Shown here one piece after another: positions 5,580 through 59,835 of a stretch of 64,000 nt of DNA. How positions within the stretch are numbered: position 1 is the stretch's first letter; every line of letters starts with the position of its first letter. The position numbers and the translations under genes were made by a program. Source of the stretch: a bacterium (lineage in GTDB: Bacteria > Zhuqueibacterota > Zhuqueibacteria > Residuimicrobiales > Oceaniaggregativiventaceae); the NCBI GenBank assembly GCA_029565675.1, contig JAKQNP010000019.1, positions 62,001 through 126,000 on the forward strand. Reading direction: 5' to 3'. The notes beneath the pieces were generated by a model. That model did no database searches. It saw only the letters and a list, made by a program, of their open reading frames with translations, and was not told where the DNA came from.

Positions 5580-7733
5580 ATGAAAAAATCTTTTGTCATT
5601 CTGCTGTTTCTCTCTGCCTCGATCCTCTTGCAAGCCGCCGAGCAAACCGGCCGCATCACCGGCCGAATTGTCGACAGCGAGACTGGCGAAGCACTGCCGG
5701 GAGTCAACATCCTTCTCATAGGCACAGTTCTCGGCACCACATCCGACCTGGGTGGCGAATTTAGCCTGGCTGATCTGCCTGCCGGCCGGGTCGATGTGCG
5801 CATCACCATGATGGGATACAAGCAGGTTGTCAAAAAAAACATCCTGGTGGTTGCCGGGCAAACCGTGGATCTGCCTGTGGCCATGGAATCGACCGTATTG
5901 GAATCGCCGGAAATCCTCATTACCGCCAACAAACGCCGGCAAAATATCACCGACTCCCCGAACAGTGTCGGAGTCTTGACTGCGCGAGACCTGGCAGCGA
6001 AAAACAAGGTTTATTTGAATGATCTGCTCCAATATGCCTCCGGAGTCAATTTTGTCGGCTCGCAGATCAACATCCGCGGCTCTTCGGGCTACAATTACGG
6101 AGCGGGCAGCCGGGTCCTCTATCTGATCGACGGTGTGCCGGTCATGCCGGGTGACAGCGGCGACATCAAATGGGATCTGGTGCCTGCATCGCAAATCGAA
6201 CAGGTTGAGATTATCAAAGGCGCCGGCTCAGCCTTGTACGGCTCGAACGCCCTGGGTGGCGTGGTCAACATCATCACCAAAAAAGCCACCAACCGCCCGC
6301 TGACCCAACTCCGTTATTCTGCCGGTTTCTACGATGAACCTGCCTATCCAGAATGGCAGTGGACCGAAAGATTGCTCCATTTTGATGACCTCGACATCGA
6401 TCACACCCGCACCATCAGCGATCACCTCAATCTTTTTGCAGCCTTCGGCCGTCATCAATCGACCGGCTATTACCAGAATGGCCATTTCCAGCGCTGGAAT
6501 GCCGCGGGGAAATTGCACTGGAAGGTCAATCCGACTTCCAACCTCACTCTCTCATCCCATTATGAAGCAGGCGATCGCGGTGCCGCGCTGTTGTGGCGCA
6601 GCCAGCGCCATGCGTTGGAAATGCCTGCAGAAGCGCTCGGCGACCGGGTTGAATCCAACAAGCTGAGCCTCAACGCCTTTTATAATCTGGCTGCCAATCG
6701 CAATCTGGGTTTCAAGACACGAGTCTCCTATTTTCGCAATTTTTGGGAAAATTTTTTCCACGACAACCAGACACGTTCAACCGCCCACCGTGTCGGCCTG
6801 GAAGTACAGGCTGACCGGCAGTTATCCGAACACAATTCGCTGATTATCGGCAGCGAAACCTCATGGGATCACGTGATCTCACAATTGGTCGGCACTCACG
6901 ATCAAACCGTCTTCTCTGTTTATGCCCAAAATGAACGCCGACTCATCGACGATCTCAATTTGACCATCGGCATGCGGTTCGATCACCACAGTGTTGACGA
7001 TAGCTTTACAGACTCTGAATTGAGTCCCAAACTGGGACTGGTTTGGCACGCTCGCCCGGAGGTAAGTGTGCGGCTGTCCAGCGGCCGAGCCTTCCGCGCC
7101 GCCAGCATGTCTGAACGCTTTTCCGAAGGACTCTATTCGGGGCTGCGCCTGATTCCCAATCCACAACTCAAATCGGAAACAGCCTGGTCGCACGAGATCG
7201 GTGCCAACGTTCGCCTGCACTCCAGCCTGATCATCGACCTGGCCGCCTTCAGCAGCGACTATTGGGACCTGATCGAACCAGAACCCGATGCCAGCCAGAC
7301 CATCCAGTTTATCAACCTCACGCGGGCCCGCATCTCCGGAACTGAAATCATGCTCAAATGGACCACCTGGAGAAAACGGCTGAACTTCGATCTCGGCTTT
7401 ACGTTTCTCTATCCGCGCGATCTGGAACGCGACACCTTTCTCGCCTATCGCTCGCGCCGGCTTTTGAATGGTTCGACCAGTTTTTCTTTTTCGCGGTTCG
7501 AAATAGGCATCGACTACCGGTATGCCGCCAAACTCGATCAAGAAGCGATTAAAGTCTACCCAAACGACGATCGCGTCTCCCAACATGTTGTGGATTTGCG
7601 TCTGACAACGAACATCGGCACCTACCAGTTCATTGCCCAAGTTAAAAATCTCTTCAACCACAACCACATTCAGGTCGAACGCACTCTGATGCCGATCCGG
7701 CATTTTCTCTTTACCGCCAGCACACGTTTCTGA
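5580..7733 (+). CDS. TonB-dependent receptor with N-terminal carboxypeptidase-like domain
   Basis: A 717-residue outer-membrane receptor. After a signal peptide (MKKSFVILLFLSASILLQA), residues about 22-105 form a CarboxypepD_reg-like domain (GRITGRIVDSETGEALPGVN ... TTSDLGGEFSL). A plug domain follows at about 115-220 (NSVGVLTARDL, INIRGSSGYNYG, YLIDGVPVMPGD, EQVEIIKGAGSALYGSNALG) and then a barrel ending in a terminal phenylalanine. Such proteins import scarce substrates such as siderophores, cobalamin, glycans or peptides using TonB energy. No SusD partner is adjacent, so a Bacteroidetes-type glycan pair is not indicated. It follows the duplicated-domain lipoprotein by 15 bases, probably as one transcript. 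The substrate cannot be read. Confidence 0.93.
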   Translation: MKKSFVILLFLSASILLQAAEQTGRITGRIVDSETGEALPGVNILLIGTVLGTTSDLGGEFSLADLPAGRVDVRITMMGYKQVVKKNILVVAGQTVDLPVAMESTVLESPEILITANKRRQNITDSPNSVGVLTARDLAAKNKVYLNDLLQYASGVNFVGSQINIRGSSGYNYGAGSRVLYLIDGVPVMPGDSGDIKWDLVPASQIEQVEIIKGAGSALYGSNALGGVVNIITKKATNRPLTQLRYSAGFYDEPAYPEWQWTERLLHFDDLDIDHTRTISDHLNLFAAFGRHQSTGYYQNGHFQRWNAAGKLHWKVNPTSNLTLSSHYEAGDRGAALLWRSQRHALEMPAEALGDRVESNKLSLNAFYNLAANRNLGFKTRVSYFRNFWENFFHDNQTRSTAHRVGLEVQADRQLSEHNSLIIGSETSWDHVISQLVGTHDQTVFSVYAQNERRLIDDLNLTIGMRFDHHSVDDSFTDSELSPKLGLVWHARPEVSVRLSSGRAFRAASMSERFSEGLYSGLRLIPNPQLKSETAWSHEIGANVRLHSSLIIDLAAFSSDYWDLIEPEPDASQTIQFINLTRARISGTEIMLKWTTWRKRLNFDLGFTFLYPRDLERDTFLAYRSRRLLNGSTSFSFSRFEIGIDYRYAAKLDQEAIKVYPNDDRVSQHVVDLRLTTNIGTYQFIAQVKNLFNHNHIQVERTLMPIRHFLFTASTRF

Positions 7734-51085: not shown

Positions 51086-53962
51086 TCATTTCGCCAGGAT
51101 CATTTTTCGCAGCTGAACAAAGGAGCCGCTTTGCAAACGATAAAAATAGATACCGCTGGACACCCGCATCCCCCGTTCATCTGTGCCGTCCCATGGCAAG
51201 ACATGGTGCCCGGCAGCACAAACGCTGTGGAACAAAGTTTTGATGCTTTTACCACGCACGTCGAAAATTTCTATCTTTGTTTCACCCTGTTTGGGCAAAG
51301 CAAAAGCAATATGGGTCAACGGATTGAAAGGATTGGGATAATTTTGCTGCAAAGCATAGTCGGTCGGTGCAGAAGCGATTTCCGGTTCTGTTCCATTCGA
51401 CATCAGGATCATAAAAATAAAATCGCTGGTATCAAAAACACCACTGGCGATATCGGTGACCCGCGCCAGACACTCTTCGCTGCCCGGACAGGTCACGTTC
51501 CAAATCCACTCGCCGCCTTCACCATGATTTTCAACGCCCTCAGCCAATGTTTCCCAGGTCAAGCCGTTGTTGCGAGACAATTCGATCCTGATTCGATCGT
51601 GCAGATCGGTTCCCTGCCAACTGATCATCAGATCTGAAAAACATCGATACGCTTCGCCGCCGTTGGGTGTGAGCAACCTGATTTCAGTCACAGGCTGGTT
51701 TCCGGTGCCGGTCAGTGCGATATCCAGCGGACTTTCATCGGTATCATTGCTCAACATCCGGAGCACAGCATTCTTCTCGCCGACAGCGATTGGGTGAAAA
51801 GCCAGCTCGATGGTGTGTGCCTCTCCCATAGGCAGCGCAAATGGCGCCTTGCCAGCGTTGATCGAAAAAAGCGCTGAATCAACACCGATTACCATCATTT
51901 CAGTCACCAGCAGATCGCTCGTGCCTGCATTGTGCACCACAAGGCTCTTTACCGAAACCGACCCAACCAGCACATCATCCCATTGCAGAACAAGGGAATC
52001 GACGGCAATATCCGGAACCGGCACCTCGACGCCGTTGCCGCTCAGGGAAACACTCAACAAGCGTTCATCCGGATCGTTGCTCAACAGGCGCAGAATTGCA
52101 TTCTTTTCTCCCACAGCAGTCGGATTAAAGCGCACATCAACGATCTGTGCACCTCCCGGCGCCAGGGTAAATGAAACCACTCTTGAAGTGATGGTGAACT
52201 GGTCGGCGTCAGGCCCGCTGAGAGTGGTGCCGATCACCTGCAAAACCGCAGTCCCGACATTGCTGACCACAAAACTCTGTATCGAAGCCGACCCGATCAT
52301 CACATTGCCGTATTCATGCAAGCCCGGTTGAACTGCGATATCAGGTTGCGGTACCGGTATCCCGTTGCCGGTCAGAATGACCTGAAACGGATTTTCGTCC
52401 GGATCGTTGCTCAACAGGCGCAAAACAGCGCTGTATGGCCGTACCTCGGTTGGAATGAATCGCACTGAAAAAGTCGTTTGGCCGCCCGGCAACAACCCAA
52501 ACCCAATCGAATCAATCAGGACAGAAAAAAAGGCTGAATCGGCGCCGCCTAGCTGCAAAGCTGTCACCTGCAGATCAACCTCGCCTAGATTGTAAACCAC
52601 AAAATCGCTGGTTGAAACGGTTCCGACAATCACTTCGCCAAAATCGCACCATTGCGGTTCGATCGCAAGGTCAGGCTGCGGGACAGGAACGCCTGTGCCG
52701 GTCAGAGCAACTGCAAACGGATTTTCGTCAGGATCGTTGCTCAGCAAAAGCAGAGCAGCCGCATAGCTCCGCACTTCGGTTGGGTTGAATTCCACGGCAA
52801 CCGCTGCCGTTTCTCCCGGCGCCAAACTAAAACCGGAATTACCAGACAAGCAAGAGAAAAAAGCCGAATCAACACCGGTGAACTGCAATGCAGTCACACT
52901 GAGATCGACACCGCCGGAATTGCGCACCACAAAGCTATGCGTTGAACTGGTCCCGACCATCACCGGGCCATAGTCGTGGGAGTTTGGCTCAACCTCGATG
53001 TCAGAATTCGGCAGCGGAATACCGGTGCCTCCAAGAACGATCGCGAGCGGATTTTCATCCGGATCGTTGTTCAAGAAACGCAAACAAGCGCTGTAGGATC
53101 TCGATTCGGTTGGGCTGAATCGCACCCGCACCTTGTGACTGTCTGCCGGCGCCAGATTAAAACTCAGTGTATCGGAGAGGATGGCAAAAAAAACCGAATC
53201 GGTTCCGACGAGCTGCACCAGGGAAACGCGCAATTCAGCCGTCCCAAGATTGACGACTTTAAAATAATGGATGGAATCCGTTCCGATGATGACATCGCCA
53301 AAATCAAAAACAAGCGAATCAACGGCAATATCAGGTCGCGGAGGCAACACCCCCCGGCCGACCAGATCAACGCTATAGGGATTCTCATCCGGATCGTTGC
53401 TGTTAAGCCGCAGTTCCGCGGTTTTGATTCCCGGTGAAGAGGGTCGAAAAATCATCTCGATGATATGAAACGCCCCGGCCGCAACAGTGAAAGGCGCTCC
53501 GCCACTCTCGATACTGAACAAACTCGCATCGGCTCCGATGATGCTGATCGAGGTTACCATGAGAAGATCATCGCCGCGATTGTACACCACAATCTCAACA
53601 GTTCGACTCTTTTTGTTGACGGTGGCATCGCCAAAATCATAGAGGCTTATATCGGTATCGATATCAGGCACACCCGCGCCGCCAGTTACCACTGGATCAT
53701 CACCGCTGGGATTTTTCTCTTCCGCTGAGATCTGCGGTTCTGTCGAAGTGTCGATGGGAAAACCTTGCCTGGGATGACCTGATCGATGGGTTTGTTCGGC
53801 ATCCGACTCAATAACGACCTGGGAGGCTTCAGATCCGCTGCCGGCGGCAGCAAAAACGGCATTTGGTTGTGCGCAGGCGGAGCATGGAGCCAGCAGAGCC
53901 CAACTCATGGCGAAAAGCAGGCAAGGAAAACAACGCCTCAAAAGAGTGGCAGAACCAGACAT
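51086..53962 (-). CDS. Secreted ASH-repeat (choice-of-anchor D) protein with type IX sorting domain
   Basis: A 958-residue exported protein. The signal peptide spans about the first 32 residues, and AGGAGG precedes the ATG. From about residue 95 there are six repeats of roughly 100-110 residues, each starting like PDIAVDSLVFDFGDV and ending like SNDPDENPFAVALTGTG. These are ASH/HYDIN-type immunoglobulin-like domains. A further domain (IRLLTPNGGEAYRCFSDLMISWQGTD) follows. The end is a type IX secretion/FlgD-like sorting domain with NYPNPFNP, FDVRGKSIKTLF and GIYFYRLQSGSF. It should be secreted to the cell surface or medium as a structural or adhesive protein. No known enzymatic module is seen. 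Confidence 0.92.
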   Translation of the reverse strand: MSGSATLLRRCFPCLLFAMSWALLAPCSACAQPNAVFAAAGSGSEASQVVIESDAEQTHRSGHPRQGFPIDTSTEPQISAEEKNPSGDDPVVTGGAGVPDIDTDISLYDFGDATVNKKSRTVEIVVYNRGDDLLMVTSISIIGADASLFSIESGGAPFTVAAGAFHIIEMIFRPSSPGIKTAELRLNSNDPDENPYSVDLVGRGVLPPRPDIAVDSLVFDFGDVIIGTDSIHYFKVVNLGTAELRVSLVQLVGTDSVFFAILSDTLSFNLAPADSHKVRVRFSPTESRSYSACLRFLNNDPDENPLAIVLGGTGIPLPNSDIEVEPNSHDYGPVMVGTSSTHSFVVRNSGGVDLSVTALQFTGVDSAFFSCLSGNSGFSLAPGETAAVAVEFNPTEVRSYAAALLLLSNDPDENPFAVALTGTGVPVPQPDLAIEPQWCDFGEVIVGTVSTSDFVVYNLGEVDLQVTALQLGGADSAFFSVLIDSIGFGLLPGGQTTFSVRFIPTEVRPYSAVLRLLSNDPDENPFQVILTGNGIPVPQPDIAVQPGLHEYGNVMIGSASIQSFVVSNVGTAVLQVIGTTLSGPDADQFTITSRVVSFTLAPGGAQIVDVRFNPTAVGEKNAILRLLSNDPDERLLSVSLSGNGVEVPVPDIAVDSLVLQWDDVLVGSVSVKSLVVHNAGTSDLLVTEMMVIGVDSALFSINAGKAPFALPMGEAHTIELAFHPIAVGEKNAVLRMLSNDTDESPLDIALTGTGNQPVTEIRLLTPNGGEAYRCFSDLMISWQGTDLHDRIRIELSRNNGLTWETLAEGVENHGEGGEWIWNVTCPGSEECLARVTDIASGVFDTSDFIFMILMSNGTEPEIASAPTDYALQQNYPNPFNPLTHIAFALPKQGETKIEIFDVRGKSIKTLFHSVCAAGHHVLPWDGTDERGMRVSSGIYFYRLQSGSFVQLRKMILAK

Positions 53963-54065
53963 TTCGCCTCCTGGCGGCAAATTGAACAGCTACCGAGTAA
54001 TGATCGCGGGATTGGCAATAAAAAACAGAACGATGACTTTCACCCACAAAGCGCAAAACCAACCA

Positions 54066-55520
54066 TCAATAAGCAATGGTCCCCTTCCATTGTGCAGGGG
54101 TGATAAAAATGAACAGAGCATAGATTTCCAAACGTCCCAGGAGCATGACTGCCGTGAGAATCCATTTGCCCAGCACCGGAATATGGGCAAAATTTCCGAC
54201 AGAACCAACAGACGATAGACCCGGGCCAACGTTGCCCATCGCGGCAACGACGCCGGAAAAAGCGCTGAGCAAATCGACGCCCAGCGCCGCCAGCAACAAA
54301 GAAGTAAAAAAGACAATGATGAGATAAACCATCACATAGAGCACATTTTTCAGCGCGGTTTCTTCCTTGACCGGTTTGCCATCGACGCGAATCGGGATGA
54401 TTGCATTGGGGTGCATGACCAGCCGGATCTGGTTGATGAACGCCTTTAAAACCACCACGATGCGGTCCACTTTGATGCCGCCGGATGTCGAACCGGAACA
54501 GGCGCACTGCAGGGCAAAAAAGATTAAAATCAGCTGGGAAAAGGCTGGCCAGACAGAAGTATCGGTTGTTGCAAAACCGGTCGACGTACCAACCGACAAA
54601 ATATTGAAAGAAGCCAGCCGCAATGCATCAACAAAGGTTTTATCTTGGGATAGAGCGAGATTGAAGGTCACCAGCAGAACCCCCAGCAGCAGAGAAAAAA
54701 CATAATAACGGACCACGGTCGCACCGAACAAATTTTTGACTTTGCCGCTGATCGCAGCGAACAAAAGCACAAAATTGATGCCCGATAACAGCATAAAAAC
54801 CATGACGACCATCTCAATAGGTGCAGAATGGTAATGGGCAATGCTGGCATTGCGGGTGGAGAACCCCCCGGTGGCAATGGTGGCAAACGAGTGGGTGACG
54901 GCATCGAAAAGCGACATGCCGCAAAACAGCAATGCCAATGTTTCGAGGGCGGTTAAACCGAGATAAACGCCCGCTAGAATCTGGATGGCGCGGCGGGCGC
55001 GCACATGGAAATTTTGCTGCACAACTGCAGACACCTCTGTCTTGAACAGCACAATCTCGGCGATGCCGATGAACGGCAGAATCGAGAGCACAAAGATTAT
55101 GATACCGATACCGCCGATCCAATGCGTCGAGGCGCGCCAGAACAGCAAACTGCGCGGCAGCACTTCAATATCGATCAAAATCGTCGATCCGGTGGTGGTA
55201 TATCCGGATACACTTTCGAACCAGGCATTGGTAAAATCAAATGGTCCGCCCCAAAGAATATAGGGCATCACCCCGAACAGACAGGCAGCCAACCAGCTGA
55301 GCACGACGATCGATAAACCTTCCTTGTTGGTGATGTGGTCTGTCGACGGTACAAAAATCAGCGAAAACACGCCGATCAGAGCGGAGACCAGCCCGCTGTA
55401 AAACAGCGGCAAAAATGCACCATCATGAAAAATTAGCGAGAGGCCGGCCGACAGAAACATAAAAAAGGCATTGAGCAGCAAAGCCAGGGAAACATAGCGC
55501 AAAACAACATGGATTCTCAT
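54066..55520 (-). CDS. trkH: TrkH-family potassium uptake protein
   Basis: A 484-residue membrane protein with four pore loops. The selectivity-filter glycine segments are visible as VSGYTTTGSTI, IATGGFSTRNAS, VGTSTGFATTDTSV and MGNVGPGLSSVGS. About 10-12 membrane helices surround them. It imports potassium and normally needs a TrkA-type gating ring, which is not encoded nearby. Its ATG overlaps the stop of the upstream HAMP-protein gene by four bases (55517-55520), so the two are co-translated. An in-frame start at 55553 would overlap that gene further and is less likely. Confidence 0.95.
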   Translation of the reverse strand: MRIHVVLRYVSLALLLNAFFMFLSAGLSLIFHDGAFLPLFYSGLVSALIGVFSLIFVPSTDHITNKEGLSIVVLSWLAACLFGVMPYILWGGPFDFTNAWFESVSGYTTTGSTILIDIEVLPRSLLFWRASTHWIGGIGIIIFVLSILPFIGIAEIVLFKTEVSAVVQQNFHVRARRAIQILAGVYLGLTALETLALLFCGMSLFDAVTHSFATIATGGFSTRNASIAHYHSAPIEMVVMVFMLLSGINFVLLFAAISGKVKNLFGATVVRYYVFSLLLGVLLVTFNLALSQDKTFVDALRLASFNILSVGTSTGFATTDTSVWPAFSQLILIFFALQCACSGSTSGGIKVDRIVVVLKAFINQIRLVMHPNAIIPIRVDGKPVKEETALKNVLYVMVYLIIVFFTSLLLAALGVDLLSAFSGVVAAMGNVGPGLSSVGSVGNFAHIPVLGKWILTAVMLLGRLEIYALFIFITPAQWKGTIAY

Positions 55521-56281
55521 CGGTTCTTTTCCCGACTTTTGCTGATTTGGCACAATTGCGCAATCGATTCCGAAAGCTCGGCGATCTCGTCTTTTGTCTC
55601 GATAGAGACATCATAGGGAGCTCTATTTTCGATAAAGCGTTTGACGCGGTCGGTGATCCGGATGATCGGGCTGACCATGTAGTAATTGACATAGTAATTG
55701 AATATCAGGGTGAACAGCAACGCAGCCAGAATTGCCACCAAACCCGGCATGACAGCGCGATTGGAACGTTGTTTGAGATCCGAAGCAGTATGATACATGG
55801 CGCCCGCATTTAAGCTGCTGAGTTCATTCACCTTAGTTTTTACATCCAAAAACTCCTGATGGACCTCCTGCCAATACCATTCGATATTTCCTTGACGGGG
55901 CGTATCGACGATGGGGCGCATCCACTTGGTTCTATATTGCTCATACCGGATTTGGATCGAATCGAGGCAGGCTTGTTCGCCGGCTACAGTGATATTGCTT
56001 TTGGCAAACGCGAGGCGATCGGTGAAAATGCTGTCGGATCTGACAAGAAGCTGCCGCCCTTCTTGCCACTTACCGAGCATCAACAGCAAAATCGCACTGT
56101 CCTGGCGCTCCAGAGCGTCGGCCATAACGTCTGCCGCCGAGATGCTGCGGAAATTCTCGTCGAGAAAGCCCTGCACGGAAAAACTGGCGGCTTTGAGTTC
56201 CCAGATAGTCCAGATGCCGGCAATGGCCATCATAATGGCCAAAATTAAAAATCCAGACAAAACCTTTATACGCAAACCCAT
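55517..56281 (-). CDS. Membrane sensor with HAMP domain but no output domain
   Basis: A 254-residue protein. A first membrane helix (residues 8-26) is followed by a periplasmic helical region of about 150 residues that resembles a four-helix-bundle sensor (4HB_MCP-like). A second helix lies at about 178-200, and then a HAMP domain (SPIIRITDRVKRFIENRAPYDVSIETKDEIAELSESI) ends the protein. No kinase, methyl-accepting or cyclase domain follows before the stop. It is translationally coupled to trkH. The ATG has AGAGGTG upstream. It could be a regulatory partner of TrkH in place of TrkA, or the remnant of a chemoreceptor or kinase; I lean to the former on gene layout. Confidence 0.8.
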   Translation of the reverse strand: MGLRIKVLSGFLILAIMMAIAGIWTIWELKAASFSVQGFLDENFRSISAADVMADALERQDSAILLLMLGKWQEGRQLLVRSDSIFTDRLAFAKSNITVAGEQACLDSIQIRYEQYRTKWMRPIVDTPRQGNIEWYWQEVHQEFLDVKTKVNELSSLNAGAMYHTASDLKQRSNRAVMPGLVAILAALLFTLIFNYYVNYYMVSPIIRITDRVKRFIENRAPYDVSIETKDEIAELSESIAQLCQISKSREKNR

Positions 56282-56511
56282 CGTTCACCTCTAATTCTTA
56301 GGCGCCTGAACAAACAGCGTTCACCCCACTATCGCCTGATTAGTTTATTTTATCGAATATATACTAAAGTCGCAAGCATTTCTTATCGGATTTCGCGGCT
56401 GGTTAGAGCTATTTTATCCAATTTACCCTTGCTCGGAAGATCTAAAAACAATACATTGCAGCACAATCTCGCTGGTTTTTGGAAAGCGTATTTTTAATCG
56501 AGGAAATGGTT

Positions 56512-59500
56512 ATGTTCAGAAAACCCGTCATTTGGATCATCATCGCTGTGCTGGCAGTGATGAGCACGATCGTCGCGGTGCGCTATTTCCCGCGCGCTTT
56601 TCCCATCGTCTCGCTCGATCTGCAGATGGATCGCGAGTTGGCCATGGAACAAGCGAGACAGCTGGCCGTGCGTTACGGCTGGGGACCGGAAGATTTCCGC
56701 CAGGCCGCCTCTTTTTCGGGCAACGAAAACGTGCAATATTATGTTGAGCTGGAAGCCGGCGGAGTCACAGCGCTGCGCGACATGATGCAGAAAGACGCCT
56801 ACCATCCCTATACCTGGCGAGTGCGCCACTTTCAAGCGGGCGACGCTCACGAAACCCGAATCGTTTTCAAGCCTGACGGCACCCCCTACGGCTTTCGCAT
56901 CAAATTGCCAGAAGAAGAACCGGGCCCAACCCTGACAGCCGACGCCGCCCGCGCTATTGCCGAATCGCTGGCTGTGGCGGACTGGAAAATCGATTTCTCC
57001 CTCTATGAACCGGTGGAAACCGCACTCGACGTCCGCATCGGCGGCCGCACCGACCATACTTTCGTCTATGAACGATCGGATATGAAAATCGGCGAGGGGC
57101 TATACCGTCTGCGCCTCATGGTAGCCGGCGACCGCTTTGCCGAACTGAACCATTTCGTCAAAGTCCCGGAAGGCTTTGACCGCCGCTACCAGGAAATGCG
57201 CTCGCGCAACGAGATGCTCTCCATGTTCAGCGTCGGCGCCTTTGCCCTGCTCTACGGCGTCGTCGGCATCCTCATCGGCCTCTTTGTCCTTCTCAAACAG
57301 CGCTATGTGTTGTGGCGCAAAGCCTTGCTGTGGGGTTTGTTTATCGCTTTGCTCAGAATGCTGGTTCTAATAAACAGTTGGCCTCTGGAATGGATGGATT
57401 ACGACACCGCGCTGTCGCAGGGTAATTTCCTGTTGCAACGCATCCTTATGCTGCTCGGAACCTTTATCGGCGAAGCACTGCTCCTGGCCTTGACGTTCAT
57501 GGCCGCCGAAAGCCTGTCGCGCAAAGCCTTTCCCCACCATGCACAATTGTGGAAAGTTTGGAGCAAAGAGCCGGCCGCGTCGCCGCATGTCTGGGGTCTG
57601 ACCTTTGGAGGCTACCTCTGGGTACCCCTTACCTTTCTCTTCAGCACGCTTTTTTATTATTTCACCAACCGCCTGTGGGGCTGGTGGACTCCTTCGGATA
57701 TGCTCTTTCAGCCCGACATGCTGGCGCACCATTTCCCGTGGCTGTCATCCATTGCCATCTCTTTACAGGCAGGTTTTTGGGAAGAATCATACTTCCGCGC
57801 GATTCCTATCGCCGGCGCGGTGCTCCTTGGCAGGCGTTATGGCAAAACAGGCATCTGGCTGGTCGGCGCCATGATCCTTCAGGCCCTGATCTTCGGCTCC
57901 GCCCACGCCAATTACCCACAACAACCCGCCTATGCCCGCATCGCCGAATTGTTCGTGCCCTTTGTCTTTTACGGCATCATCTACTATTTTTTCGGTTTGC
58001 TGCCGGTGATCATCTCTCACTTTATCTATGATGTGATCTGGTTCGCCTTGCCCCTGTTTGTCTCTTCGGCAAGCTCCATCTGGATAGACCGCGCTCTGGT
58101 CATCCTCCTCGCTCTCGTACCGGTATGGGTCATTCTAGTTGCCCGCTTGCGCGCCGGCAAGTGGCTGCCGATTGCAGATCATCTGAACCGCACGTGGACA
58201 CCGCCGCCACAGAAAATCGACGACAAACCGATAACAGGAGCGAACGAAATGCCGATTTCCGCCTGGACCCGTCGCATGCTGACTGTGGCCGGTCTCGTCG
58301 GTCTGCTCGTCTGGGCGCTGTTCACACCTTTTGTCAACCACACCATTCCCCTGCAACTGGACAAGACCCGGGCCATCGACTATGCCCAGCAGGAACTGGC
58401 AGCCCGGGGAATCGAGCTGCCGGATCATTACAAGACTCTGCCTTTTGTGCTGCAGCCAATGGATGTCGATGACCGTTTTGTGTGGCAGACCGGCGGCAGC
58501 GAGGTGACTGATTCGCTGATGGGATCCTATCTCGCGCCGCCGTTGTGGAAAGTTCGCTATGCAACCTTTAGCGGTGATATTGAGGAACGGGCAGAGGAAT
58601 ACATCGTTTCAGTGGGCAACGACGGCAAGATCTATCGATTCATCCACCAACTGCCCGAATCGCGGGCCGGCGCCCGCCTCGATGAGGCGCAAGCCAGACA
58701 GCTCGCTCATCAACACCTTCAGGAACGCTTTGGCAAGAATGCAGCCGAATTGCTGGAAACTACAGCTGAACCGAAAAAACTGCCCAATCGCACTGACTGG
58801 TCTTTTGTCTATGCCGACACCGCCGGCTATCCGATGGCCGCAGGACAGGCGCGCATGACAGTGCACATCAGCGGCGACGAGGTCACCGATGCCTATGCCC
58901 TGGTCCATGTGCCGGAGGAGTGGCGGCGTTTGGAACGCAACCGCAACAATGCCATCGAAATCCTGCAAACCACCAGCCAGTCGCTGTTAATCCTGAGCTT
59001 GATCGCCGGCGTGGTCCTTGCAATCATCTTTTGGAGCCGCAAGCAGTTCGACACCCGTTTGTTTTTAATCGTCGCCAGCGCCCTGGTGCTGCTGCGCATC
59101 GCTTTGTCGATCAACAGCTGGCCGGCGGTTTGCGCCAATTTTGTCACCGCGCAATCCTTTGAAACCCAGAAAGCGATCGTCCTGGTCGGCATCGCGATCG
59201 GCACGGTCTTCATCGCGGCTGCATTCGGTTTGGTGATCGGATTTTTGCGCGCCTGGCTGCCGCAACAGAAACGACAACCGCAGGGTTGGCTCCTGGCAGT
59301 GTTGGCGGGAATGGCGGTCAGCGGCCTGGTCGCACTGCTGTTGCGCCTCAGTCCGTCGCTGACGCCGAAATGGCCGGACTATACCGCTCTGGACCGCCTG
59401 GTTCCCTTGTTCGGCGTGACTTTCAGCCCGCTGATCTCCTATTTGCTGAATTCAGCGTTTCTGTTGTTGCTTTTCCGGCTGGTGAGCACCATCAGCGATT

Positions 59501-59835
59501 TCGGCCGACGGCGCAAAGGTCTGCTCGCCTTTTTAATGCTGCTCGCCGGTTTTATCTTTGCCGGACAGTTCTCGTTCGATTCCGTGCTCTCCTTTGTCGT
59601 GGCTGGAGTGGTGCTGGGCACAACCTTGCTGCTGCTCTATCTCGGACTGTTCAACCGCCAGCTGTATCTTGTCTGGATTTTTGTCGCTGTGTTGATCATG
59701 ATCGAACAGCTGGCCAATGCGCTCGTGTATTCGCAACCGTTCTATTGGCTGGGCATGGGATTGTCGATGGCGATGATCGCCCTCGTCGCCTGGTCGATGA
59801 CCAGAGCGTTTATGCGCACCTTAACGGACAAGTGA
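56512..59835 (+). CDS. Large duplicated CPBP-family membrane protease
   Basis: An 1107-residue membrane protein. The start at 56512 follows AGGA. The first half has an N-terminal helix, a periplasmic PepSY-like region (residues about 35-230), and then a CPBP (Abi/CAAX protease) domain. Its catalytic parts are E424-E-S-Y-F-R429, H465 in FGSAHANY and H503 in ISHFIYD. The second half, from about residue 590, repeats the first: HVPEEWRRLERNRNNAIEI matches KVPEGFDRRYQEMRSRNEM, and LLRIALSINSWP matches LLRMLVLINSWP. It lacks the EExxxR glutamates. So one half looks active and one is degenerate. Substrate is unknown. Confidence 0.88.
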   Translation: MFRKPVIWIIIAVLAVMSTIVAVRYFPRAFPIVSLDLQMDRELAMEQARQLAVRYGWGPEDFRQAASFSGNENVQYYVELEAGGVTALRDMMQKDAYHPYTWRVRHFQAGDAHETRIVFKPDGTPYGFRIKLPEEEPGPTLTADAARAIAESLAVADWKIDFSLYEPVETALDVRIGGRTDHTFVYERSDMKIGEGLYRLRLMVAGDRFAELNHFVKVPEGFDRRYQEMRSRNEMLSMFSVGAFALLYGVVGILIGLFVLLKQRYVLWRKALLWGLFIALLRMLVLINSWPLEWMDYDTALSQGNFLLQRILMLLGTFIGEALLLALTFMAAESLSRKAFPHHAQLWKVWSKEPAASPHVWGLTFGGYLWVPLTFLFSTLFYYFTNRLWGWWTPSDMLFQPDMLAHHFPWLSSIAISLQAGFWEESYFRAIPIAGAVLLGRRYGKTGIWLVGAMILQALIFGSAHANYPQQPAYARIAELFVPFVFYGIIYYFFGLLPVIISHFIYDVIWFALPLFVSSASSIWIDRALVILLALVPVWVILVARLRAGKWLPIADHLNRTWTPPPQKIDDKPITGANEMPISAWTRRMLTVAGLVGLLVWALFTPFVNHTIPLQLDKTRAIDYAQQELAARGIELPDHYKTLPFVLQPMDVDDRFVWQTGGSEVTDSLMGSYLAPPLWKVRYATFSGDIEERAEEYIVSVGNDGKIYRFIHQLPESRAGARLDEAQARQLAHQHLQERFGKNAAELLETTAEPKKLPNRTDWSFVYADTAGYPMAAGQARMTVHISGDEVTDAYALVHVPEEWRRLERNRNNAIEILQTTSQSLLILSLIAGVVLAIIFWSRKQFDTRLFLIVASALVLLRIALSINSWPAVCANFVTAQSFETQKAIVLVGIAIGTVFIAAAFGLVIGFLRAWLPQQKRQPQGWLLAVLAGMAVSGLVALLLRLSPSLTPKWPDYTALDRLVPLFGVTFSPLISYLLNSAFLLLLFRLVSTISDFGRRRKGLLAFLMLLAGFIFAGQFSFDSVLSFVVAGVVLGTTLLLLYLGLFNRQLYLVWIFVAVLIMIEQLANALVYSQPFYWLGMGLSMAMIALVAWSMTRAFMRTLTDK

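Follow-up and report, generated by a model that had tools for sequence, protein, structure and literature searches.

A receptor that ends at its HAMP domain, conserved beside a dedicated subclass of TrkH: a candidate sensor subunit for a potassium channel

Background

HAMP domains relay signals in very many receptors, and we know of no output for receptors that end at the HAMP domain, such as Af1503. Archaeal Af1503 is described as a HAMP-only receptor translationally coupled to a small STAC protein, Af1502, in an operon that includes an MgtE-type transporter, and archaeal HAMP-only receptors are reported to lie often near transport genes (PMC4834066). For VpTrkHA, it is reported that TrkA touches TrkH at HN1 (T175, R177), in a D1-D2 loop holding the pore closed, and at HN2 (H377, R379), in a D3-D4 loop that moves the intramembrane loop (PMC6987127). 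T175 and R177 were placed in the D1-D2 loop from our alignment of the TrkH described below with VpTrkH. SLC5-STAC kinases are reported to join transport to signalling (PMC13022988, PMC9100948). A HAMP-only protein accompanying TrkH, KtrB, a Trk system or a potassium transporter was not found described in the searchable portions of the open-licence literature.

Here we describe such a pair of genes in a 64-kb stretch of bacterial DNA, referred to below as the window.

Results

Layout and domains of the HAMP-only protein

The features of the pair are collected in Table 1. An earlier note on this DNA, made from the letters alone, had reported that the stop of the HAMP gene and the start of trkH overlap by ATGA, and its coordinates were correct: the HAMP-only frame stops with TGA at 55519-55517 on the minus strand and the trkH ATG begins at 55520, with four bases common to both. 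The TrkH length of 484 aa is counted from this ATG, while the listed 495-aa frame begins at an upstream GTG.

Table 1. Features of the HAMP-only/TrkH pair, in window coordinates
Feature	Coordinates	Strand	Basis
HAMP-only sensor gene (254 aa: TM1, periplasmic four-helix bundle, TM2, HAMP, stop)	55517..56281	-	ORF, alignment, model, profiles
Periplasmic four-helix-bundle sensory part, residues ~29-178	55748..56197	-	model pLDDT 84.7; VIA-align Z ~15
HAMP region, residues ~203-250; last folded part, with no output domain after it	55532..55675	-	alignment, model, profile
Four bases (ATGA) shared by the HAMP stop and the TrkH start	55517..55520	-	sequence
HAMP-linked TrkH, K+ channel subunit, 484 aa	54066..55520	-	Pfam, 3pjz comparison, tree
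TrkH D1-D2 cytosolic linker, residues ~158-184, remodelled in the HAMP-linked class; HN1 contact site in VpTrkHA	54969..55049	-	class comparison
TrkH D3 intramembrane gate loop, residues ~334-353; class-specific Q338, C339, A340, S346	54462..54521	-	class comparison
TrkH D3-D4 loop surrounding H370-P371, which corresponds to the HN2 contact with TrkA and is kept	54399..54419	-	alignment

The description of the upstream protein as a receptor that stops after HAMP also held. About four residues follow the HAMP region, the stop codon comes directly after HAMP with no cytosolic output domain in any of the 26 aligned members, and seven further HAMP-only proteins beyond these are 251-254 aa long. 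A truncated kinase or a sequencing error can be ruled out, since all members of the family end at the same point.

The structural model (mean pLDDT 84.7) consists of a transmembrane helix, a periplasmic four-helix bundle, a second transmembrane helix and HAMP, with helices at residues 133-219 and 232-253 forming a helix-connector-helix after the membrane span. P205, D231, E232 and L236 are invariant in all 26 aligned members. The HAMP signature, which we take to be a proline in AS1 and Asp-Glu at the start of AS2, is present in the family alignment (n=26), together with the modelled helix-connector-helix. At E <= 0.01, PF00672 (HAMP) matched four of the 26 members, the window protein not among them, and PF12729 (4HB_MCP_1) matched 25, identifying the bundle as homologous to 4HB_MCP_1; the window protein itself gave 4HB_MCP_1 alone in Pfam, at 21 bits and below the cut-off, with HAMP not called. 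The C-terminus of the family profile aligns with the HAMP domains of Af1503 (E 0.03-0.05) and Tsr. The sensor bundle superposes on the sensor domains of KinB, Vc1313 and MCP2201 with a VIA-align Z of about 15 over about 125-150 residues, a value that helical bundles reach easily, and the whole chain superposes on NarQ and on receptor TM-HAMP structures with a larger rmsd.

Conservation of the pair

The earlier note had proposed a search for conserved HAMP-only/TrkH neighbours, and the pair proved to be conserved in several phyla: trkH lies beside the HAMP-only gene in all 34 loci with readable surroundings. No gene separates the two in 33 of these; in the other, L067 from a Desulfobacterales genome, a 249-aa ORF with a signal-peptide-like start (5770-6519, plus strand) stands between them. 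At the 30 junctions measured among 33 examined, the gap was always between -4 and +10 bases, and 17 show the ATGA overlap. Linkage of this kind is far above chance.

These sequences come nearly all from metagenome-assembled genomes. A scan of 60 genomes yielded four further full-length HAMP-only proteins (G001, G029, G009 and G013), each immediately followed by TrkH; the GTDB species collection yielded 23 HAMP-only loci, and further loci came from scans of the window's own phylum and three others. The hosts, as named in the records, include candidate division KSB1, Calditrichota, Ignavibacteriota (Melioribacteraceae and others), Chlorobiota, Bacteroidetes, Desulfobacterales (Desulfobacterota), a Deltaproteobacterium and Acidobacteria; the KSB1 record, L063, corresponds to the same-genus genome G001. 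The count of 34 leaves aside L083, which is interrupted by a run of N and duplicates, in the same genome, the intact pair L105, and L084/L017, which holds 31 codons at a contig end and has a KtrB-like gene just upstream of the cut HAMP-only start in the same orientation. The trkH genes of L125, L079 and L223 are incomplete, with their starts alone present; that of L223 (1-593), the HAMP-linked one of G679, ends after about 90 codons beside a transposase-like frame at the contig end.

Around 27 sampled loci, the HAMP-only and TrkH families recur at every one and repeat-rich secreted proteins come next, at nine; the remaining recurring families are mostly antisense frames, and no signalling gene recurs beside the pair at these 27 loci. 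In the window, the gene directly downstream of trkH (51086-53980, minus strand) encodes a protein of 964 aa, predicted to be secreted, which carries five or more Ig-like repeats of the HYDIN/ASPM type and ends in a sorting-like tail at its C-terminus. Divergent from the pair lies a gene (56479-59835, plus strand) for a protein of 1118 aa with multiple membrane spans, which looks internally duplicated and matches Pfam only weakly, through a YcdB/YcdC repeat at 23.5 bits (cut-off 27).

Natural fusions of the two genes were also looked for. Two open frames of 652 and 808 aa turned out to be ordinary ATGA-overlapping pairs whose frames are open upstream, and there was no TrkH frame of fusion length among those listed from the examined genomes and the phylum scan, the longest being 631 aa.

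One origin for each partner

In a tree of 51 TrkH rows (27 HAMP-linked, 21 canonical and three from kinase operons), the HAMP-linked sequences form one clade (SH-aLRT 100) whose stem measures 1.22 changes per site. The canonical rows are labelled TrkA-linked, trkA being nearby for 17 of the 21 and the label resting on sequence type for L095, L104, L106 and L107. The sensor-module tree separates 33 HAMP-only sequences from 52 kinase inputs by a branch with an SH-aLRT of 100. The TrkH of L075, L079, L125 and L213-L223 stand outside the TrkH tree, and rows L102, L108, L109 and L113 were omitted; L069, which has masked letters, is in the tree and not in alignment A4, alignment A3 and the sensor tree do not contain the L105 HAMP row, and L238 counts among the kinase loci described below and not in the tree. 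The phylum scan gave six full-length TrkH matches above 500 bits (580-1025), every one beside a HAMP gene, with the rest below 400 bits; setting aside a 261-aa fragment at a contig edge in G015 and the contig-cut TrkH of G009, no TrkH of the HAMP-linked type lacked its HAMP gene among these six. Tree distances of the two partners correlate weakly (partial r 0.27, permutation p 0.047, 19 genomes).

The HAMP-only protein is thus a complete and conserved protein next to its own dedicated TrkH subclass. That it should be a kinase stripped of its output domain and left by TrkH through chance is an idea to which the homology of the module to kinase inputs lends something; it is contradicted by the uniform length and end point across several phyla, the single origin, the linkage at 34 of 34 loci and the low dN of the HAMP-only gene in the same-genus pair (0.24 against a dS of 2.3), and we consider it already refuted, with next to no probability left to it. 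The conserved coding of this protein with its own class of TrkH in many unrelated bacteria suggests that the channel is in part directly controlled by the sensor, and with a constant architecture and nothing else conserved around the pair, direct signalling to the channel would be the most economical reading. The HAMP-only protein could also be a structural subunit or chaperone for the assembly or stability of this TrkH subclass that senses nothing, and strict co-inheritance with translational coupling would then appear identical. A mere chaperone, however, would have no need of a conserved sensor core and HAMP signature that are common to kinases of potassium operons, and we regard this role as rather unlikely.

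TrkA in genomes that carry the pair

The earlier note had remarked that no TrkA lies near the pair, which is correct inside the window and does not extend to the genome, where TrkA is present: the contig that carries the pair also encodes, about 22 kb further on and outside the window, a double-RCK TrkA of 450 aa (232 bits to the solved TrkA 4g65), with a second trkH adjoining it. This canonical trkA-trkH operon (L033, on contig C2 of G000) has a syntenic counterpart in G001 (L119) that lacks trkH. The order of NHL protein, trkA, esterase and UroD-like gene is kept, the gap between trkA and the esterase gene is 34 bases, and TrkA is intact, with 84% identity to that of the window genome (dN 0.11, dS 1.35). 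The only TrkH-type channel of G001 is the HAMP-linked TrkH, beside two KtrB-like channels. The same situation is seen in G061, G062 and G103, where the single TrkH is HAMP-linked and a double-RCK TrkA is encoded elsewhere.

Among 27 distinct pair-bearing genomes (29 handles, two of them duplicated), a double-RCK TrkA was present in 23 and a fragment in one more; it was not found in G088, G093 and G099, all of which are fragmented assemblies. Most pair-bearing genomes examined also have a canonical trkA-trkH pair. A single TrkA serves both TrkH and TrkG in E. coli. As trkA is kept where the HAMP-linked TrkH is the sole TrkH, TrkA most likely still works with the HAMP-linked TrkH, and the HAMP protein probably adds to TrkA instead of replacing it. 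The hint of a TrkH that does without TrkA is therefore not borne out. Two findings had been named as speaking against a direct coupling, a TrkA encoded elsewhere and a lack of conservation of the pair; the first is what the genome contains, and the second is contradicted by the 34 linked loci.

Remodelled regions of the HAMP-linked TrkH

The window TrkH has an ordinary pore, with 172 bits to PF02386 and 270 bits to the V. parahaemolyticus TrkH (3pjz). It has the four M1-P-M2 repeats and filter glycines of TrkH, and TTTG, TGGF, TSTGF and NVGPG are invariant or nearly so in 23 sequences. When the 27 HAMP-linked sequences were compared with the 21 canonical ones, class-specific positions numbered 9 among the 27 residues of the D1-D2 linker (against 2.8 expected), 8 among the 20 of the D3 gate loop (2.1 expected) and 1 among the 32 of the D3-D4 linker (3.4 expected), a regional clustering that is to be read as a lead and not as a test, because the regions were drawn after the list of positions had been seen. 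In the gate loop, which is different in all 27, Q338-C339-A340 is invariant, whereas canonical TrkH has a variable residue followed mostly by Gly-Gly.

The two TrkA contacts differ in their conservation. At HN2 the histidine (H370) is retained in 26 of the 27 HAMP-linked sequences. At HN1 the arginine (Arg177) is retained in only 17 and lost in 10, so the contact with TrkA may be altered or lost in some of them, and Pro176, which precedes it, is retained in none.

These changes bear on a further explanation, in which the HAMP dimer takes over the task of the TrkA ring, so that the sensor alone gates the linked TrkH and TrkA serves only the canonical one. The losses at HN1, the altered gate loop and the availability of a canonical partner for TrkA in most genomes would all be in keeping with this. 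The near-complete retention of H370, the occurrence of TrkA in most of the genomes and above all the survival of trkA in the four genomes where canonical TrkH was not found (G001, G061, G062 and G103) argue against it, and we think it unlikely. A remodelled gate together with a kept HN2 fits a sensor that acts on the gate while TrkA retains its main anchor.

The same sensor module in potassium-operon kinases

The module that makes up the HAMP-only protein also serves as input module in histidine kinases, which are about 610 aa long and have HAMP, PAS, HisKA and HATPase domains. Of 53 kinase loci (33 hand-picked, mostly top-ranked, with four and all 16 from other scans; 530 kb in total), 42 had a potassium uptake gene in the stretch fetched, namely Kdp in 22, KimA-like in 20, Trk in nine and Ktr in four, a proportion that does not estimate that of a random sample, because the loci were partly hand-picked from the top ranks. 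The other 11 had no potassium gene, at least four of them being cut short by contig ends. The KimA-like transporters were identified by a match of 227 bits to the solved KimA 6s3k, and KdpA and KdpD by Pfam. As the kinases of this module stand beside potassium uptake genes, we infer that it is a potassium-related sensor, reading potassium shortage, turgor or something linked to these. Apart from its own TrkH, the pair had no potassium uptake gene in the window and one (L240) among 27 pair loci.

Several kinds of arrangement recur at the kinase loci. In Bacteroidota the kinase adjoins a KimA-like transporter, KdpA, KdpB or a KdpD sensor protein; a recurrent cluster there (L159-L191) contains an NtrC-type regulator, a KimA-like transporter and the 4HB-HAMP kinase, after which kdpA-kdpB or a KdpD sensor protein often comes, and is a potassium regulon cluster in its own right. 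Another operon (L158, L156, L157, L225, L227 and L233-L236) has the 4HB-HAMP kinase, a small response regulator, one or more separate small RCK genes and a divergent TrkH gene. In G010, G068 and G075 the genes run in the order kinase, response regulator, two small RCK proteins and TrkH. An RCK-RCK-TrkH operon at L223/L240 is followed directly by the HAMP-only gene and the beginning of the linked TrkH.

The presence of HAMP-only and kinase forms of one module around potassium transporters, like the known transporter-kinase fusions (PMC13022988, PMC9100948), would suit a flow of information in the reverse direction, with the HAMP protein reading the transport state of TrkH and passing it in trans to a kinase or chemoreceptor. 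In the window genome, G001, G029, G061 and G062, the search for this sensor module gave the HAMP-only gene as its sole match in each case, and no kinase. This and the lack of a recurring signalling gene beside the pair speak against such a transceptor, which appears improbable to us.

Discussion

A possible role for the sensor

Our best reading of these comparisons is that the HAMP-only protein is a previously undescribed sensor subunit that would act directly on a dedicated subclass of TrkH. That the two genes form one unit, in which this TrkH subclass has its own transmembrane sensor subunit as a direct input added to TrkA, is a proposal that we hold in about even balance. A dimeric sensor could detect potassium limitation, turgor or a related envelope signal in the periplasm and would meet a dimeric TrkH in the membrane. 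Movement of TM2 and HAMP would reach the TrkH dimer by contact on its cytosolic side, where the HAMP helices may touch the remodelled D1-D2 linker or the intramembrane gate loop, and the signal would shift the open probability of TrkH, that is, the ease with which the channel opens. TrkA would dock at the retained D3-D4 site and supply nucleotide control; with TrkA still docking and controlling, the HAMP protein would supply an additional input without standing in for the gating ring. The more specific idea of a widespread class of bacterial potassium channels gated by a transmembrane receptor is a tentative one, and we put its chances somewhat below even; a sensor without a kinase would there act through its HAMP coiled coil, which would push directly on the gate loop and D1-D2 linker of TrkH, next to nucleotide control by TrkA.

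If this is true, a signal from outside the cell would control potassium uptake in one step, while the nucleotide control by TrkA acts from inside, and a sensor-gated channel would have been made from chemoreceptor parts with HAMP itself as the output domain. A fast, post-translational, outside-sensing control of TrkH would thereby be added to nucleotide control through TrkA and to transcriptional control through the kinases of potassium operons. The occurrence of one sensor module with kinases and beside channels suggests that it is used in both a kinase form and a channel-coupled form. In many bacteria the pair also offers a receptor that ends at HAMP an ion channel as its candidate target, and with such a target the question of what a bare HAMP does becomes testable by channel recordings.

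Comparison with known systems

Four described systems share parts of this arrangement. The SLC5-STAC transceptor kinases (CbrA, CrbS) resemble it in the physical union of a transporter with a sensor of the two-component type, but there the union is one polypeptide with a kinase output, running from transporter to gene expression, whereas HAMP and TrkH are two polypeptides with no kinase. The KinB-type or 4HB-HAMP kinases of potassium operons have a homologous TM-bundle-TM-HAMP input and neighbours of the Kdp, KimA-like, Trk or Ktr type; they have a PAS-HisKA-HATPase output and response regulators, while the HAMP-only protein has no output domain and adjoins a channel gene. VpTrkHA belongs to the same channel family, with the same filter and D3-D4 docking site for TrkA, which the window genome also encodes; the window TrkH differs in its extra sensor gene, its remodelled D1-D2 linker and gate loop and its lack of linkage to trkA.

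The nearest precedent for the bacterial family, when the HAMP parts are compared, is Af1503 of Archaeoglobus fulgidus (operon Af1505-Af1502). In both, HAMP is the sole cytosolic part, and for Af1503 translational coupling to a neighbouring gene and an ion transporter (MgtE) in the operon are also described (PMC4834066). The bacterial family differs in having an MCP/KinB-like four-helix sensor. It has no coupled STAC partner of 60-90 aa, the next gene being TrkH with none separating in 33 of 34 loci. The tight partner of the archaeal receptor is the 68-aa STAC protein Af1502, whereas that of the bacterial family is TrkH itself.
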